From assembly GCF_013391105.1 (NCBI RefSeq), contig NZ_CP058335.1, positions 3,286,001 to 3,350,000 on the forward strand: a stretch of 64,000 nt of DNA, given 5' to 3'. The notes beneath the pieces are model-generated. The model searched no databases. It saw only the letters and a program-made list of their open reading frames with translations, and was not told the origin of the DNA. Within the stretch, counting starts at the first letter, position 1; the number at the start of each line of letters is the position of its first letter. This stretch comes from Natronomonas salina. GTDB lineage: Archaea; Halobacteriota; Halobacteria; Halobacteriales; Haloarculaceae. Both the position numbers and the translations under genes were made by a program. Below are positions 13,854 through 26,343 of this stretch, piece by piece.

Positions 13854-15383
13854 ATGGGAAAGTTTTCCGTGTTCTCTCTCGTGGTGCTGGTCCTCGTGGC
13901 CGGGGCTGCGGTCCCCGGGGCCGCGCTCCAGGGCGGCCCGCCCGACCACGCCGGGGGCGGAGACGGCGGCGGTCCCCCCGACCACGCGAACGGCGGCGAC
14001 GCCGACGACGATGACGCCGAAGCCGACGGTGACGACGACGCCGGCGAAGAGGAAGCGGGCGACGAGGCGGACGACGGTCCGCCGGACCACGCGAACGCCG
14101 CGGAGGAGGGAGGTTCGGAGTCGGCGGATAGTGATAGCGACGACGCCACGACCGACGCGGACTCGGACGAGCGCGACGGCGAGTCGTCGCCGGAGGGTGG
14201 GTCGGACTCCGACGACGGCCCGTCGGACGTGGTCGACTCCGTGCTCGAGCCCCTCGACCCGTCGGAGGACCCGACGCCGGAGACGCCCGAAGCGACGCCC
14301 GACACGCCCTCCTCGCAGGACGACCGGGAGCGGTTCCCCTTCCCGGAGGAGACGGAGACGTCGACCCCGGAGGCGGAGTCCGAACCGACCGGGACGCCCG
14401 GATTCCCATCGAACCAGTCGGTCGACTCGACGCCGACCCCGGACGACGGCGGTGCGTCCACTCCAGCCACAACTCCGACGAGTTCGGGCGTGGCTGACCC
14501 GGGGCCGTCGGTCGACGTCGAGACCGGTGAGAACGAAACCGTCGCGTCGGTCTCGGGCGTCGACGACGGCGAGAACGTCTCGATCGATCTGCGCGGCCCG
14601 GCGACCGACGGCCGGACCGTCGGCGTCGAGGCAATCGACGTCGGCGTCGGCGACGGGCAAGCCTTCGACATCGGGGTGACCCGCCCCACGGCGAACGCGA
14701 CCGACGAACCGGTTTCCGGGGTCTCGCTCGCGTACTTCGACGTCGAGACCGACCTGGACGACGTCGAGCGGGCGACGCTGACCCTCGAGGTCGACGCGGA
14801 CGCCCTGCCGTCGGACGTCGCCCCCGAGGCCGTCCAGGTACTGCGGTACCACGACGGCGAGTGGACGAGCGCGGAGACCTCGACCGACGGGACCGCCAGC
14901 GACGCGGCGACGGTCACCGCCGTGACGCCGGGCTTCTCGACGTTCGCGGTCGCCCTGCCGGAACGGCGGCCGCTGCAGGTCACCGACGCCGAGGTGCCGG
15001 CCGACCAGGTCCGGGCGGGCCACGAACCCACCGCCCGCGCGACGGTCGCCAACCCCAGCGAACGACGGGCGACCGAGTCGGTGTCGGTCTCCGTCGACGG
15101 CGAGACCGTCGAGACCCGCGAGGTGACCCTCGACGGCGGCGAGTCCACCACGGTCGAGTTCGAACTGCCGGCCCAGGCGGCCGGCGAGCGCTCGGTCGCC
15201 GTCGAGGGCGTCGAGGCCGGCCAGTTGCAGGTCCGCGGCGCGGACACCGCGACGCCCGCGGCGGCCGAGGAGAGCCGTCTCGACGTCGGATTCGGCATCG
15301 CGGCGGCGACCTTCGTCGTGCTCGCCGCTGCGGGGACCGGCCTCCTCGCCTCTCGACGCGAGAACTGGGACTGGCGGCGCTGA
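13854..15383 (+). CDS. PGF-pre-PGF domain cell-surface protein
   Basis: The 509-aa exported protein has a signal peptide at residues 1-25 (FSVFSLVVLVLVAGAAVPGAA). An extremely acidic, probably disordered region follows to about residue 220 and contains three GPPDHA motifs. A PGF-pre-PGF domain (~225-365) ends in the typical TAVTPGFSTFAVAL. Next comes a CARDB-like beta domain (~370-460, EVTLDGGESTTVEF) and a C-terminal membrane helix with a basic tail (SRRENWDWRR). No PGF tripeptide precedes the helix, so it may be a permanently membrane-anchored protein rather than an archaeosortase substrate. N-glycosylation sequons are present (NQS, NET, NVS). Confidence 0.87.
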   Translation: MGKFSVFSLVVLVLVAGAAVPGAALQGGPPDHAGGGDGGGPPDHANGGDADDDDAEADGDDDAGEEEAGDEADDGPPDHANAAEEGGSESADSDSDDATTDADSDERDGESSPEGGSDSDDGPSDVVDSVLEPLDPSEDPTPETPEATPDTPSSQDDRERFPFPEETETSTPEAESEPTGTPGFPSNQSVDSTPTPDDGGASTPATTPTSSGVADPGPSVDVETGENETVASVSGVDDGENVSIDLRGPATDGRTVGVEAIDVGVGDGQAFDIGVTRPTANATDEPVSGVSLAYFDVETDLDDVERATLTLEVDADALPSDVAPEAVQVLRYHDGEWTSAETSTDGTASDAATVTAVTPGFSTFAVALPERRPLQVTDAEVPADQVRAGHEPTARATVANPSERRATESVSVSVDGETVETREVTLDGGESTTVEFELPAQAAGERSVAVEGVEAGQLQVRGADTATPAAAEESRLDVGFGIAAATFVVLAAAGTGLLASRRENWDWRR

Positions 15384-19760: not shown

Positions 19761-20153
19761 GTGACACGCTCGCTGCCGCCGGCGCCCCGGCCGCTCCGCT
19801 ACGCCGGGGTGGCCGCCTGCGCAGTCGTTATCCTCTACGCCTCGGTGCTCGAACCGGGCGACGGCGCCGCCACGACGCTCTTCGGCGTCGGCGCGACCGT
19901 CTACCTGCACTTCCTCGCCTACGGGGGGCTTGCCGGCGCCATCGGGTACGCTCGACTGGCCGCGGACGGTCGGACGTTGGCCGCGGCGGCTGGTACCGCG
20001 ACGCTGTTCGGCGTCATCGTCGAACTCGTCCAGGGGACAATTTCCTATCGGACGATGAGCGCCTTCGACGTGGTCGTCAACGGCGTCGGGGGCGTCGCCG
20101 GAACGCTGCTGTGGCGCGGTCTCGCTCCGCTATTCGGCGCGGAACGACCGTGA
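19761..20153 (+). CDS. VanZ-like membrane protein
   Basis: The 130-aa protein has three to four hydrophobic segments and the VanZ pattern: VYLHFLAYGGLAGAIGYARL, then FGVIVELVQGTI...MSAFDVVVNGVGG with the conserved E-x-x-Q and D-x-x-x-N. The role of the family is unclear; VanZ gives low-level teicoplanin resistance in bacteria, whereas archaea have no peptidoglycan. GTG 19761 is used as the start because the 10 in-frame residues before it are not conserved in appearance. It is divergent from aor. Confidence 0.82.
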   Translation: MTRSLPPAPRPLRYAGVAACAVVILYASVLEPGDGAATTLFGVGATVYLHFLAYGGLAGAIGYARLAADGRTLAAAAGTATLFGVIVELVQGTISYRTMSAFDVVVNGVGGVAGTLLWRGLAPLFGAERP

Positions 20154-20308
20154 TAAGCACTCCCCGGGATGCCCACGGCGAGCGCCAGTCAGGCCGTGAC
20201 GCCGCTGGTGTCGGCTATCTCGCTATCGTATCAGTCCGGTGTTCGGACCTGGTGAGGGACTGAGCATCCCCGACCTGGATGCAAAAGTCCCGAAAGGGGG
20301 ATGAGGTA

Positions 20309-21442
20309 TCAGTCCCGGACGCTGGCCTCGCCCTGCTCCGATGCCGACACCCACGACCCGGTCGGCCTGAATACGTACACCGTCCCGCCGTCGATGACGT
20401 AGTAGGACCCGTCACCGACGTCCTCGATGACGCGCTCGTCGCCGTCGATGGCGACGTCGACGAGGCCGCCCAGGGTGTCGGCCTCGACGAGCGGACCGGT
20501 ACGGAGTTCCCCCGGCACGCGGCCGCGGGTGATCCACTCGTCGAGTTCGTCGCGGGTCCGTCGTTCGAGGACGCGTCGCCGGACGTGGTCGGGCGGTGAG
20601 ACCCGCCCCAGGAGGCGACCGACCGCGAGGGCAGCCAGTCCTCCCAGCCCAGCGACGAGCGCGAGCGGGCCGCCGACTGCCCCCAGCGGATCGCCCGACC
20701 CGCGGACCGTCCGATGCTTGACGAGCACGGGTCTGGACTCGGCGGTGTGCTCCTCGTCGAGAACCGTGTAGGTGTTCCCCTTCGCGTCGAGGGGTAATCT
20801 CGTGGTCTCGACGCCAGCGACGGGTTGCTCGTCGACCATCCCCGTCGTGTGGGTCCGGGCGAGCAGCGTCGCCTCGACCGTCCCGGGCGTGCCGCCGACC
20901 TCCCCCTCGATCTCCTCGACCCGCTCGGAGAGCGCCTCGACGTCGAGGCTGAAGGGAACGACGACCGTGCCCGCAGGCCCCTCGACGCCCTCGGTCGCGA
21001 GTCGCTCCGAGGTCTCCCAGTAGACGTCCCCGCCGTCGACGGAGCGGAGCTGCAGCGAGAGGGTCGTCTCGACCGCCACGTCCTCCACGTCGGTGGCCCT
21101 GTAGTCGTGCGTGTAGGTGCCGTTCAGCTCCGGCGCCATCCGGACGACGAAGTTCCGCCGGTCGTCGAGGCGCGTCCCCACCGGGTAGACGGGATTGTCA
21201 CGCTGGACGGTCGCACCGTAATCGTACCCACCCTCGCCGTCGACGGACCCGGCGACGCGTTCCTCGGTGACCGGCGCCGCGTAGGCGGCGAACGTGAGCC
21301 ACCCGCCGACGAGGGCCACGACGAGCAGCGCCGTGAGGACGACCGGGAGGTGGTCGTCCAGGCGCACGCGAGCGCGGTCGAGAGCCGACGGGTCGTCGCC
21401 GGCTCGGCGGTCGGCGGACGCCTCGAGGCCGTCAGGAAGCAC
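20309..21442 (-). CDS. DUF5305 membrane-anchored protein
   Basis: The 377-aa protein has an N-terminal membrane helix (about 33-53), a large extracytoplasmic beta-rich domain (about 60-260) and a second membrane helix (about 268-293). It ends in a cytoplasmic tail of about 80 residues that may form a small domain (DGSYYVIDGGTVYVFRP). This is the DUF5305 pattern, widespread in haloarchaea and often found beside signal peptidases and TasA/DUF1102-type secreted proteins. Its start overlaps the end of the upstream gene by 11 bp, so the two are co-transcribed. A role in assembly or anchoring of the secreted subunits is inference. Confidence 0.82.
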   Translation of the reverse strand: MLPDGLEASADRRAGDDPSALDRARVRLDDHLPVVLTALLVVALVGGWLTFAAYAAPVTEERVAGSVDGEGGYDYGATVQRDNPVYPVGTRLDDRRNFVVRMAPELNGTYTHDYRATDVEDVAVETTLSLQLRSVDGGDVYWETSERLATEGVEGPAGTVVVPFSLDVEALSERVEEIEGEVGGTPGTVEATLLARTHTTGMVDEQPVAGVETTRLPLDAKGNTYTVLDEEHTAESRPVLVKHRTVRGSGDPLGAVGGPLALVAGLGGLAALAVGRLLGRVSPPDHVRRRVLERRTRDELDEWITRGRVPGELRTGPLVEADTLGGLVDVAIDGDERVIEDVGDGSYYVIDGGTVYVFRPTGSWVSASEQGEASVRD

Positions 21443-21947
21443 AGTTCGGATTCACCTCCCCGTTCGTCGTCCGCGTCGCCACGACGGTGACGCCACCGGT
21501 GGCGGTCAACTCGACGGTCGCGCGGGCGGCCGCCAGGTCCCGGGTCTCGTCGCCGCAGCTAATCTCGACGCGCCAGTCCGCGTCGCCTCCGTCCGTGACG
21601 ACGGCGACGGTCAGCGCCGGGCTCGAGTCGTCGCCGTAGGACACCAGTTCGGCGCTCACGTCGCCGGTCGTGGTCGTGTCGTACGTGCCCGCGTTGTCGA
21701 ACAGCGAGTAGATCGGAGCCGACTCGCCGGCGCCGACCGAGACGGCGGCCCCGCTCGCATCCGTCTCGTCGCGGATGCCGAGGTAGGAGTCCGCGTCCCC
21801 GGCGACGGTTACGGACATCCCCCGGTCCGCGCTGGTGGCGACGAACGCGCCGCTCGTGCCCCCCGCGAGGAGGACCCCGAGGAGCACGAGGGCGGCGCCG
21901 GCCAGCCGGAACCGGCGATCGCCGCCGGTCCCGCGGGTTGGTCGCAT
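21432..21947 (-). CDS. Secreted TasA/DUF1102-like protein
   Basis: This 171-aa protein has an N-terminal membrane/signal helix (residues ~14-34, AGAALVLLGVLLAGGTSGAF). Directly after it comes VATSADRGMSVTVAGDADSY, which resembles the mature N-terminus of the neighbouring DUF1102 protein (SADRDMTVTTANDSGSY). Two cysteines near the end (ISCGDET, NPNCAS) could form a disulfide. The rest is beta-rich. Such short single-beta-domain proteins, cleaved by SipW-type peptidases, resemble TasA/camelysin and archaeal bundling-pilus subunits. ATG 21947 was chosen over a GTG at 21968 because a TATA-like GATTAGTTG lies about 30 nt before it. It is co-transcribed with the DUF5305 gene. Confidence 0.72.
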   Translation of the reverse strand: MRPTRGTGGDRRFRLAGAALVLLGVLLAGGTSGAFVATSADRGMSVTVAGDADSYLGIRDETDASGAAVSVGAGESAPIYSLFDNAGTYDTTTTGDVSAELVSYGDDSSPALTVAVVTDGGDADWRVEISCGDETRDLAAARATVELTATGGVTVVATRTTNGEVNPNCAS

Positions 21948-22021
21948 CTGCGCACCCTTTCTGACCACCCCTCTTCAACTAATCGCCGGTCGAGGGAAGA
22001 ACGGGAGTTCGAGGCGACCGG

Positions 22022-22037
22022 CCCAATACGTATTGGG
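22022..22037. promoter_or_regulatory. 16-bp perfect palindrome in a divergent promoter region
   Basis: CCCAATACGTATTGGG is a perfect palindrome between the two divergently transcribed secreted-protein genes. A second short palindrome, CCAATTGG, follows at 22061-22068. The first lies about 45 bp upstream of the TATA-like box of the minus-strand gene. Together they look like binding sites for a dimeric regulator; the identity of the regulator is unknown. Confidence 0.5.
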
Positions 22038-22153
22038 TACGCAACAGAGAGCAACCCAAACCAATTGGCATCAAGGTGAAACGTTCCTGGTCTAATCGAG
22101 TTGGTAAGCATCGAACGCCCCGCAGACGGCGCGGCTCGGTGCGGACAACAACT

Positions 22154-22690
22154 ATGGAACGACGCAACTTCGTCATCGGACTCGGAGGAATCGCAGCGAG
22201 CGCAGGCCTAGTCGCCGGATCGGGTGCGTTCTCGCAAATCAGTGCAGACAGGGACATGACCGTTACAACCGCGAACGACTCGGGTTCCTATATCTCGCTG
22301 GCACCTGTTTCGGACACGAGTGAATACGCTAGTACGACTACAGATGGTCACGTACAGCTCCATTTCGGTGATATTAATGGTGCAGTTGTCAACGACAACG
22401 CAGTCTCCTGGTTCGACAATCTCGTCGAGATCGGGAACCACGTCAACAATTCTGTGTTGATTAATTATAAAATCCTTGATGGGTCTGGGACAGAGGTTAC
22501 GACCTCAGGGATTACCCTTTACCAGGGTTCCCGGGATACCGAACTTGTTGATGCATCTATTGGTCCGTACGATAGTAATAATTCAGCTCCCAGTACACTC
22601 GTATTCGGAGTGGAGATCGATACGGCGAATGGAACGCTACCGACAACTACTCAAGTTGAAATTACTGCAACTGAAGACACTACTGTCTAA
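22154..22690 (+). CDS. DUF1102 secreted protein (TasA-like)
   Basis: The 178-aa protein starts MERRNFVIGLGGIAASAG, with a hydrophobic signal helix. The DUF1102-type junction GSGAFSQISADRDMTVTTAN follows, then a beta-rich domain rich in Asn, Thr and Ser with many N-glycosylation sequons. DUF1102 proteins are abundant haloarchaeal secreted proteins; relation to TasA-type filament subunits is inferred. From about 22440 the GC content falls to roughly 45% and codons such as ATT, AAT, ACT and TTA appear. That is unlike any neighbour and suggests recent replacement or transfer of the mature part. ATG 22154 gives the family start; GTG 22076 would add 26 Arg-rich residues. Confidence 0.82.
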   Translation: MERRNFVIGLGGIAASAGLVAGSGAFSQISADRDMTVTTANDSGSYISLAPVSDTSEYASTTTDGHVQLHFGDINGAVVNDNAVSWFDNLVEIGNHVNNSVLINYKILDGSGTEVTTSGITLYQGSRDTELVDASIGPYDSNNSAPSTLVFGVEIDTANGTLPTTTQVEITATEDTTV

Positions 22691-22751
22691 GCGGCTCTAA
22701 CTCCGAGCCACATATTTCCCGGCTCACTCCCACTACGGTACATTTTCTACA

Positions 22752-23846
22752 GTGCACCCGACGCTCCGCTCCGTCCCGTGGCTACGAACGATCCTCGTGC
22801 TCGGAGCCGCGGCGATGGTCCTCGGCGCGGCGTTCGGCCAGCCCGTCCTGCTCGCGTACGTCGAGACCGGCAGCATGGAACCGACCATCGAGACCGGCGA
22901 CGGGTTCGTGGTCGTCCCTGCGGTCGTCGCGGGGGACCCCGAAGTCGGCGACGTCGTCGTCTTCCAGGCCGAGTCCATCCAGGGCGGCGGACCCACCACC
23001 CACCGGATCGTCGGCGAGACGGACCGGGGGTACGAGACCAGGGGCGACGCCAACCCGTTCACCGACCAGGACGGCGGCGAGCCGTACGTGACGGCCGACC
23101 GCGTCAGCGCGAAGGCCGTGACCGTCGGCGGCGACCCGATCGTGATCCCGCACCTCGGGACCGCGATCATGTCTCTGGAGGGCGCGCTGTCGACCGCGAC
23201 CGACTCGATCCCCGTGAGCGGGACCTCGGTGCTCGTCGCGCTCGGCGCGCTCCTGATCGCCGCTGGGACGTTCCTCGGCGGCCGGAGCGTCGACCGGGAC
23301 GTCGCGCGGAGCCGGTGGCGGCCGGGGAGCTATCCGACCTCGGAGCTGCTGCTCGCCGGTGCCGTCGCGTTCGCCGGCGTCACGGTCGCGGGGACGGTCC
23401 TCGCGTCGGGCCCCGCAGTCTACGGCCTGGTCGCGGTCGACGGGGGAGACGTCGACGACCCCCTCGTCGTCGAACCTGGCGGGACGACGACGCTCACCCG
23501 CCAGGTCGAGAACCCGGGACTGGTCCCCACAGTCGTCGTCTACGACGGGGGGCCGGGCGTCGAGTCGACGCCGGAATCGCGGCTCGTCGCGCCGCGAGGT
23601 TCGGCGTCGTTCTCGGTGACGATAGCGGCCCCGGACGAGCCGGCGCGGTTCGAGCGCGGCGCGTACGAGCATCACTACCCGGCCGTGCTCCCGCCGTCGC
23701 TCATCGCCGCGCTCCATGGCGTCCACCCCTGGCTCGCCCTGGCCGCGACGGCCACCGTGTCCGGCGGTGCCGTCGTTCTCGTCGGCCGGTTCGTACTGCC
23801 GGCGGACCGCATCCGCGTCCGGAGTTCCGCTCGTCGGCCGTGGTAA
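22752..23846 (+). CDS. sipW: Signal peptidase I, SipW/archaeal S26B type
   Basis: The 364-aa protein is a membrane signal peptidase that uses a Ser-His mechanism. The catalytic Ser is in TGSMEPT (S41), the catalytic His in TTHRIVGE (H84) and the supporting Asp in RGDANPF (D99). N-terminal and several C-terminal membrane helices flank the domain. About 180 residues after the peptidase contain an extracytoplasmic beta domain and more helices, making it twice the length of a minimal Sec11. It follows the DUF1102 gene by about 60 bp on the same strand, so a dedicated role in cleaving the neighbouring secreted proteins is likely. It starts with GTG. Confidence 0.93.
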   Translation: MHPTLRSVPWLRTILVLGAAAMVLGAAFGQPVLLAYVETGSMEPTIETGDGFVVVPAVVAGDPEVGDVVVFQAESIQGGGPTTHRIVGETDRGYETRGDANPFTDQDGGEPYVTADRVSAKAVTVGGDPIVIPHLGTAIMSLEGALSTATDSIPVSGTSVLVALGALLIAAGTFLGGRSVDRDVARSRWRPGSYPTSELLLAGAVAFAGVTVAGTVLASGPAVYGLVAVDGGDVDDPLVVEPGGTTTLTRQVENPGLVPTVVVYDGGPGVESTPESRLVAPRGSASFSVTIAAPDEPARFERGAYEHHYPAVLPPSLIAALHGVHPWLALAATATVSGGAVVLVGRFVLPADRIRVRSSARRPW

Positions 23847-23945
23847 ATACCCGAGCAGTGAGCACCCATCAGTGACCTCTTCGGCCCGATACAGCTCCTG
23901 AGGTGGGGGCCGAACTCATGTTGAGAGGGTGACTTATCTGCGGAA

Positions 23946-26288
23946 ATGCAACCGTCGATCAGGGTGCTCTGCGTGGACGACGATCAGGCGATCGTCGACC
24001 TCGTGACCACGTTCCTCGACGACGTCGACGATATCCGTACCTACGGCGAGACGGACCCCGCCGTCGCCGTCGAGCGAGTCCGCGAGGACGCGGTGGAGTG
24101 TGTCGTCTCCGACTACCACATGCCCGGCATGGACGGTCTCGAACTCCTCTCGGCCGTCCGGGAGATCGACCCCGAGATGCCCTTCATCCTCTTCACCGGC
24201 CGCGGCAGCGAGTCGGTCGCCAGCGAGGCCGTCTCTGCCGGCGTCACCGACTACATCCGGAAGTCGACCAGCACCGACCAGTACCACCTGCTGGCCAACC
24301 GGGTCCGGAACGCGGTCGAGGGCCGGCGCGCGCGGACGAACTACCGGGAGGTCTTCGACGCGGCCTCGGACGCCATCCTGGTCGTCGACCCCGAGTCCGA
24401 GACCATCGTCGACGCCAACAGGGCGACCGAACGGCTCTGGGGGTACGACGCCTCGGCGCTCGAATCTCGCCCGGTCGAGGACCTCCTCGTGGACGCGACA
24501 CACGTACGCGATACCGCCCCGACCGGAGGCGATCGCCCCGAGACGGTCGAGGTCCGGTGCGTCCGGGCCGACGGCGACCGGTTCTGGGCCGAGGCGAGCC
24601 TCGAGTCCAGAACCTTCGAGGGACAGAACTTGCGTCTCGCCGTGTTCCGCGACGTCACCCAGCGCCGGAACCGCGAGCGCGCGATCGATCGGCTCGTCAC
24701 CGGCCAGCAGGAGCTGCTGGCCGCCGAGTCGGAGGCCGCACTGGGGGCGGCTGCCGCGAACGTCGCGGTCGACGTCCTGTCGCTCGAGGCCGCGACGGTC
24801 TACGCCCGCGACGGTGCCGCGTTAGCGACGCTGGCCTCCGCCGGCATGCCGACGCCCGCCGACCGCGAGTCCCGGGCGCGGCACACCCTCGGCGGGAACG
24901 AGCCGGTACTCGAGACCACCGACAACTGGCGAGAACTGCACGTCCCTGTCGGGGACCGCGGGGTCGTCGTCGGGGTCGCCGCTCGCACCCGGTCGTTCGC
25001 CGCCCACGAGTACTCCCTGGCGATGGCGCTGGGCAACAGCCTCGATACCGCGCTCGAACGGATCGAGCGCGAGCGACAGCTCCGCGACCGTGGCGAACGG
25101 CTGGCACAGCGGCGCGGCGAACTCCGGACGAGCGACCGGATCAACGCGGTCATCCGGAACGTCCACTGGTCGCTCGTCCGCGCCTCGTCGCTCGAGGAGA
25201 TAGAGCGGCTGGTCTGCGAGCGGCTCGCGGCCTCCGACCCCTACAGCTCCGTCTGGATGGGCCGGTACGACGTCGATGCCGAGGAGATCGACCCGTCGGC
25301 CGCCGCTGGACTCGCGGGCGGACTGGGCGATCCCGTCCCCCTGGCGGACGCCCCCGCGACCCTGTCGGCGGCGATCACGGGTCCGTCCACGGAGATCGTC
25401 CAGGACGTGTCGCTGGAGCCCGACGCCGATCAGACGATCCTGCGGGGAAGCGACCACCGGTCGATCGCCTACGTCCCCGTCGTCAATCGGTCGTCCCTCT
25501 ACGGGGTCGTCGCGATCGCGGCCGACGAGCCGGACGTGTTCGGCGACGGCGAGCGGGAGGTCCTCGGGGAGCTCGGCGAGCTGATCGGCGCGGCGATCAC
25601 CGCCACCCGGCGGGAGCGTGCGCTGTTCGGGGACGACGTCGTCGAACTCGAGTTCGAGGTCACGAGCGGCGATTCGCTCGTCGGCGGCCTCTCGTCGGCG
25701 GTCGACGATCGCGTCGACGTCGAGAGCATCCTCGAGACGGGCGACGACGCGCTCTCGATGTTCGTCACGGTCCCCGGCATCGACGCCGACCGGATCGACG
25801 AGGTCGGCGCGGAGCACGCGAACGTCCGGTCGGTCGAGGCTGTCGACGAACGCCGCGGCCGCTACGAGATCGTCGTCGACCGGGCGCCGCTGATCGACGA
25901 CCTGACCGACCTGGGAGCCTCCATGGGCCGGATGTGGGGGGAGGCCGGGCGGGTCCGGTTCGCCATCGAGTTCCCCGGGGACGTCGACGTCCGCCGGTGC
26001 GTCGCCCTGATGGACTCGGCCTACGAGTCGACCTCGCTCGTGGCCCGTCGGGAACTCGTCGGCGATGCCGGCACGGACCGCTTCGGCGCTCCGATCCCGG
26101 AGGACCTGACCGACCGCCAGCGCGAGGTGCTACGGGTCGCGTACGAGACGGGGTTCTTCGAGTGGCCCCGGGCGCGGACCGGCGAGGAGGTCGCCGAGCG
26201 CCTCGACATCTCCCAGTCGACGTTCACCGAGCACCTGCGGTCGGGCGAGCGGAAGGTCTTCGAGGCGCTGTTCGGAGACCCGACCTGA
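23946..26288 (+). CDS. Response regulator-PAS-GAF-Bat-HTH_10 regulator
   Basis: This 780-aa multi-domain regulator begins with a REC domain (1-125) with the acidic pocket D11-D13, phospho-acceptor D56 (SDYHMPGMDG) and conserved Lys in DYIRKS. Next come a PAS domain (~130-245), two GAF-like domains (~255-385 and ~410-550), a Bat domain (~565-715, starting DDVVELEFEV) and an HTH_10 DNA-binding domain (~720-778, LTDRQREVLRVAYETGFFEW and STFTEHLRSGERK). The REC domain would be phosphorylated by a histidine kinase that is not adjacent. Targets are unknown; the gene starts 99 bp after sipW on the same strand. Confidence 0.92.
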   Translation: MQPSIRVLCVDDDQAIVDLVTTFLDDVDDIRTYGETDPAVAVERVREDAVECVVSDYHMPGMDGLELLSAVREIDPEMPFILFTGRGSESVASEAVSAGVTDYIRKSTSTDQYHLLANRVRNAVEGRRARTNYREVFDAASDAILVVDPESETIVDANRATERLWGYDASALESRPVEDLLVDATHVRDTAPTGGDRPETVEVRCVRADGDRFWAEASLESRTFEGQNLRLAVFRDVTQRRNRERAIDRLVTGQQELLAAESEAALGAAAANVAVDVLSLEAATVYARDGAALATLASAGMPTPADRESRARHTLGGNEPVLETTDNWRELHVPVGDRGVVVGVAARTRSFAAHEYSLAMALGNSLDTALERIERERQLRDRGERLAQRRGELRTSDRINAVIRNVHWSLVRASSLEEIERLVCERLAASDPYSSVWMGRYDVDAEEIDPSAAAGLAGGLGDPVPLADAPATLSAAITGPSTEIVQDVSLEPDADQTILRGSDHRSIAYVPVVNRSSLYGVVAIAADEPDVFGDGEREVLGELGELIGAAITATRRERALFGDDVVELEFEVTSGDSLVGGLSSAVDDRVDVESILETGDDALSMFVTVPGIDADRIDEVGAEHANVRSVEAVDERRGRYEIVVDRAPLIDDLTDLGASMGRMWGEAGRVRFAIEFPGDVDVRRCVALMDSAYESTSLVARRELVGDAGTDRFGAPIPEDLTDRQREVLRVAYETGFFEWPRARTGEEVAERLDISQSTFTEHLRSGERKVFEALFGDPT

Positions 26289-26343
26289 ACCGCAGGGCGC
26301 CCGGAGCGACACGGCTATCCGCGTCGACCGAGTAGCGGGGCCA

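Follow-up and report, generated by a model that had tools for sequence, protein, structure and literature searches.

What do four adjacent genes in the Natronomonas salina genome build, if they build a surface fibre at all? They lie at positions 20309–23846 of a 64,000-nucleotide stretch (hereafter the window, i.e. positions 3286001–3350000 of a 3.75 Mb genome on a single contig). A first-pass annotation had read them as a locus for filaments, comprising a signal peptidase of its own, two short secreted subunits and a DUF5305 protein, and had likened them to the TasA/SipW system of Bacillus. We consider it highly probable that they form a divergent, reduced version of the locus for haloarchaeal twin-arginine (Tat) fimbriae, or tafi (Galeva et al. 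2025 iScience 28:111793, as cited in PMC12687288), probably carried in by an inserted block, and that the mechanism set out below applies to them as a whole. Tafi are a newly reported type of archaeal surface thread, with an architecture that probably resembles that of the Bacillus TasA fibre. The basis for this is the gene content, the homology of the products, the intact catalytic residues of the peptidase, a beta-sandwich model, a conserved neighbourhood and an empty site in relatives.

All four open reading frames exist and all are coding, and together with the profile matches they bear out the four-gene locus (GC3, G+C content at third codon positions; pLDDT, predicted local distance difference test score):

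20309–21442, minus strand: DUF5305 membrane protein (PF17231 at 1.4e-42, above the Pfam cut-off; model pLDDT 88; hydropathy)
21432–21947, minus strand: TafC-type subunit (TafC matched by 17 of 20 alignment members; profile against 9p0a at 5.7e-8; conserved C138 and C176)
22154–22690, plus strand, from an ATG: TafE/TafA-type subunit (TafE 6.5e-14; TafA 7.5e-6; 9p0a 3.8e-9; fold matches; GC3 0.49)
22752–23846, plus strand: SipW/archaeal-type signal peptidase (TIGR02228 1.8e-15; PF10502 7e-7; invariant S41, H84, D99 and D105; hydropathy)

The DUF5305 gene and the minus-strand subunit gene overlap by 11 bases. For the latter, the start of the homologues favours the ATG at 21947 over an alternative GTG upstream, at 21968.

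Two related subunits

The plus-strand subunit matches the NCBI profiles TafE and TafA, in both cases under the equivalog cut-offs. Its sole strong relative in the PDB is 9p0a, carried in the structure library as 'Structure of Natrinema sp. J7-2 Tafi pilus', and that match rises to 6e-48 with a 40-member profile. AlphaFold models the protein as a beta-sandwich (mean pLDDT 77, with most of the mature domain at about 84–92), and by fold it is nearest to FimA variants, to 7ueg, a bundling pilus of Pyrobaculum (second match; probability 1.00), and to 9p0a (probability 1.00). These matches are donor-strand pilins, and residues 31–50 are modelled at lower confidence (65–69) than most of the domain in what is a single-chain model. 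The comparison with AbpA and TasA proposed in the first-pass annotation comes out in favour of the AbpA pilus, 7ueg, while TasA is not among the 50 structural matches listed. By sequence, the plus-strand subunit gave no match to 7ueg.

The minus-strand subunit stands in the group whose members and profile point to TafC and 9p0a. The annotation had also seen a resemblance between the two mature N-termini (SADRxMxVTxAxDxxSY), and this is real and beyond chance: the mature parts align with a score of 66, whereas shuffled sequences average 38 and one in 2000 of them scores as high. When the genome is searched with the minus-strand subunit, the plus-strand one comes up at 4e-4. A Pfam scan gave neither window subunit a family match, and the TasA/camelysin profiles PF12389 and NF046066 matched neither in Pfam and NCBIfam scans at E up to 1. 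The label DUF1102 (PF06510), given to the subunits at first, has to be withdrawn, as the profile matched neither of them nor anything in their own genome; weak matches in 10 of the 40 alignment rows of the plus-strand subunit (best 5e-7) make that family distant kin only.

Export signals separate the two types. The plus-strand subunit begins with a twin-arginine signal, MERRNFVIGLGG, with the motif RRNFV, in which R3 is invariant and R4 is kept in >90% of the alignment. The minus-strand group keeps two cysteines and mostly has no clean twin-arginine motif. Among 134 subunits with a readable junction (99 further subunit-like genes without one were left out), 70 combine a Tat motif with at most one cysteine, 46 have at least two cysteines and no Tat motif, 15 have both and 3 have neither. 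The two features are strongly opposed (Fisher test, 4e-19), a P-value that overstates the evidence because the rows are related, and each of the main classes occurs in 18–21 genera. On these sequence features the plus-strand subunit is probably exported via Tat and the TafC-type subunit via Sec. For the window's own minus-strand subunit the route is less clear than for its group, since its Sec-like signal has adjacent arginines (GDRRFRLAG) without the hydrophobic residues that follow in a Tat motif.

We propose the plus-strand protein as the main fibre subunit and the TafC-type protein as a minor or end subunit. Some TafC-type subunits elsewhere carry a C-terminal repeat region (L122 6640–7467, L136 6627–7454, L149 6409–7248 and L150 6690–7520), and four members of the TafC-type alignment match Bactofilin (best 1.8e-8), the assignment of which four having been made by eye from the repeats. 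Such repeat-bearing subunits could be candidates for a fibre tip or anchor.

Peptidase, DUF5305 and their neighbourhood

The peptidase exceeds the cut-off of TIGR02228 and also matches the SipW profile NF046067, at 1.1e-7 and under its cut-off. Hydropathy gives it about four membrane helices, the last two of which flank a second outer domain. This added extracytoplasmic domain, singled out in the first-pass annotation, is real and is not special to the window, as the aligned homologues have one too. The columns of S41, H84, D99 and D105, which we take to be the catalytic residues, are invariant in the alignment.

DUF5305 has the two membrane helices claimed for it, with which hydropathy agrees. 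Its model (pTM, the predicted template modelling score, 0.60) runs from a membrane helix through an outer beta-sandwich to another helix, followed by a small domain on the inner side. The best Foldseek matches are Af_0446 and the TMEM106B luminal domain, at E of about 2e-4, and since the template modelling score (TM-score) over the whole query is low (0.18) they point to an outer domain that the model suggests is immunoglobulin-like, and no further. A sequence search of the PDB returned nothing for DUF5305. A common origin of the outer domains of peptidase and DUF5305 was also considered and dropped, as profile comparison shows nothing.

The two families travel together. In independent searches of 45 genomes, 38 of 41 DUF5305 genes in haloarchaea lie within 10 kb of a member of the dedicated-peptidase family; both are present in 28 genomes, a single one of them in 2 and neither in 15. 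We read 40 neighbourhoods from relatives, and 66 complete named ones for which the peptidase served as the entry point. The latter were picked by peptide patterns in that protein, so that its presence reflects selection and that of its neighbours does not: a subunit is found in 66/66, DUF5305 in 65/66 and a DUF7344-type regulator in 60/66. One locus (L103, genome G024) carries TafA, TafC, TafE and TafF, all over the NCBI cut-offs, and also has a peptidase, a DUF5305 protein and a regulator of these families, which identifies the window's peptidase and DUF5305 families as those of the canonical taf locus. The gap in the letters A, C, E and F suggests that further taf genes have been named, possibly including these two. 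Compared with this canonical locus, the window has the peptidase and DUF5305, lacks TafF and the DUF7344 regulator, and has two subunits only. A second locus in the N. salina genome (L006) is fuller: besides the peptidase and DUF5305 it has the DUF7344 regulator and two subunits, one of them TafE-like, and its peptidase groups with loci of the same genus in a tree of 112.

From these genes we infer the export routes, the cleavage site, donor-strand assembly, the positions of the subunits, the role of DUF5305 and the fibre itself, as follows. The plus-strand subunit would leave the cell through Tat and the TafC-type subunit through Sec, and the dedicated SipW-type peptidase would process them close to the GAF...ADR junction. 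Once released by cleavage, the N-terminal segment common to the two subunits (ADRxMxVTxAxD) would complete, as a donor strand, the beta-sandwich of the subunit that follows. Plus-strand subunits joined in this way would form a thin fibre, one end of which would be occupied by the TafC-type subunit. DUF5305, with its two helices and its putative immunoglobulin-like outer domain, would keep subunits near the peptidase and aid assembly or anchoring, and it may be an unrecognised factor of that kind for such pili. It is not required for every archaeal donor-strand fibre, because Sulfolobus makes donor-strand threads (PMC9715654) and DUF5305 had no match in 14 control genomes that include Sulfolobus acidocaldarius and Haloferax volcanii.

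DUF5305 is present in 71 of 295 genomes sampled across the phylum. We fetched 20 stretches around it from outside the order of N. salina, choosing non-randomly the strongest and some weaker matches, and 18 of the 20 hold a match to the peptidase profile. Six loci (L217, L219, L220, L221, L224 and L226) each hold from two to four members of the window's subunit family, along with a long peptidase and DUF5305; all except L224 have a DUF7344-type regulator, that of L221 being matched to DUF7344. Two tested subunits of these loci pass DUF1102 strongly (2.9e-41 and 2.7e-37), and the signals read in them have no twin arginine. Two other stretches (L207 and L213) match camelysin (4e-8 and 3e-11) and SipW-dependent signal profiles beside SipW-type peptidases and DUF5305, and L216 and L218 resemble these by eye.

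With DUF5305 beside peptidases that serve DUF1102 or TasA/camelysin-like proteins, the module looks older than Tat dependence, which suggests that peptidase and DUF5305 are the older core and Tat export a haloarchaeal change. A broader proposal, to which we give somewhat less than an even chance, is that DUF5305 and a SipW-type peptidase are an ancient shared platform for both processing and assembling donor-strand fibres of the Taf/DUF1102 and TasA/camelysin families throughout the phylum, with DUF5305 as its unrecognised assembly or anchoring factor and Tat export added later in haloarchaea. How donor-strand fibres are put together in archaea, without the usher used by bacteria, is an open problem—the assembly pathway is given as unknown for the thread filaments (PMC9715654)—and DUF5305 is a testable candidate for assembly that links TasA-type with tafi-type loci.

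Several side observations concern these neighbourhoods. One TafF-like protein (L070, 10371–12173) has a marginal GlyGly-CTERM match and adjoins a rhomboid-like gene that weakly matches rhombosortase, so that the two are possibly a sorting pair; in many loci the peptidase comes after unmatched genes of about this size. In another genome, many of the 13 matches to the plus-strand subunit are clustered within 40 kb (L067–L068, G055:C1:2525001–2565000). The window also encodes, at 13854–15383, a secreted protein of 509 amino acids that matches, at 3e-71, a profile seeded with the PKD protein that adjoins the second locus, a profile that had drifted to include subunits. The N. salina genome has no match to archaellin (PF01917) in a search that was positive in control archaea.

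The block that carries the locus

Two further features define the setting of the four genes:

20154–26343: inserted block, from the VanZ-like gene (which ends at 20153) to the radical-SAM gene (which starts at about 26344), delimited with eight same-genus genomes
23946–26288, plus strand: Bat-type regulator within the block (receiver, PAS, GAF, BAT and HTH_10, in that order, by Pfam)

This block of about 6.2 kb is absent at the same site in the eight same-genus genomes, where the VanZ-like and radical-SAM genes are direct neighbours. Insertion in N. salina is the simplest reading of this comparison, the alternative being loss in all eight relatives. No repeats and no tRNA were found at the borders. 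The Bat-type regulator may or may not have arrived with the block, and a search of the other 121 loci turned up relatives of it in only 2.

The plus-strand subunit gene has a much lower GC3 than the window mean (0.49 vs 0.93), and the other three genes of the locus are host-like. The same is seen in most relatives: Tat-type subunit genes in named loci have a median GC3 0.22 below that of neighbouring genes (n = 87; L107–L186). A drop of more than 0.35 occurs in 19 of these 87 and in 4 of the 859 other genes, and the genes for the peptidase and for DUF5305 show no deviation. One possible reading is that the exposed subunit has often been replaced by genes from outside. Exchange of cassettes anchored in a conserved 5' end was rejected as the cause, as GC at fourfold sites of Tat-type subunit genes is equally low in the 5' (0.63) and 3' (0.62) parts, and high expression is unlikely on a tiny sample of two ribosomal-type genes with GC3 of 0.87 and 0.97.

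Viral carriage of the module was likewise rejected, viral contigs having no relative of the peptidase. Plasmid matches cover no more than about a third of the query. On a Haloferax larsenii megaplasmid (L206, NZ_CP078064.1 118408–130785), genes for a related signal peptidase and for DUF5305 lie a few genes, and no more than about 5 kb, apart, which makes this megaplasmid a possible transfer route.

Rival readings and known systems

A number of points weigh against a tafi-type locus. Neither subunit reaches an NCBI Taf cut-off: the plus-strand subunit scores 52 bits against 155 for TafE and 26 against 190 for TafA, and the minus-strand one 18 bits against 155 for TafE. The TM-scores of the fold matches are modest (0.31–0.48), the DUF7344-type regulator is absent, and the fibre in N. 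salina is a predicted one. The end branch of the peptidase is the longest of the 112 (1.29; highest identity 45%), in a quick tree where long branches are unsure, and its function may have shifted.

A true TasA/camelysin-type locus, with TasA-family subunits and SipW, would account for the weak match of the peptidase to NF046067 (about 1e-7), and camelysin-type proteins do stand beside DUF5305 and SipW-type peptidases in other archaea, with donor-strand fibres in both systems (PMC9674648). We consider this improbable for the window, whose subunits match Taf profiles and 9p0a and no camelysin/TasA profile, with TasA missing from the 50 listed fold matches. The TasA/SipW parallel drawn at first is not borne out for the subunits and stands for the accessory genes. 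Homology and neighbourhood lend good support to a filament locus that has a peptidase of its own and two divergent, paired subunits, and the profiles place its nearest kin in tafi rather than TasA.

Secreted or surface proteins that do not polymerise and have a private peptidase—a display or adhesin system derived from pili—would suit a locus with two subunits only, a lost regulator and a fibre predicted from genes. A close member of the family is a solved pilus, however, and the segment common to both subunits sits where a donor strand is expected, which leaves this account a shade less probable again. Least probable of all, in our view, is a decaying, non-functional tafi copy: the missing regulator, the longest peptidase branch and a second, fuller locus in the same genome speak for it, but four frames are open, the catalytic residues are kept, GC3 is host-like in three of four genes and the DUF5305 model is confident.

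Taking the four genes as a reduced tafi-type locus, we can place them among known systems. Pyrobaculum bundling pili (AbpA, 7ueg) and Sulfolobus threads (Saci_0406) are likewise archaeal donor-strand fibres (PMC9715654), and 7ueg is matched in fold; they differ in that 7ueg has no match by sequence and DUF5305 none in the control genomes. Bacillus TasA-TapA-SipW shares major and minor subunits with related N-termini, a dedicated peptidase and a proposed donor-strand assembly (PMC9674648), whereas the window has a larger peptidase with an outer domain, DUF5305, a Tat-type signal and subunits that TasA/camelysin profiles do not match. The DUF1102 pilus-like loci share with it several subunits of its family, the long peptidase and DUF5305, but the signals read in them have no twin arginine, the two subunits tested match DUF1102 strongly where those of the window have no match, and their DUF5305 is more divergent. 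From tafi itself the window differs by scores under the cut-offs, the lack of TafF and of the DUF7344 regulator, the restriction to two subunits and the inserted block, and it shares with tafi the subunit families TafE/TafA and TafC, a twin-arginine signal on the plus-strand subunit, and the peptidase and DUF5305 families of the curated locus.

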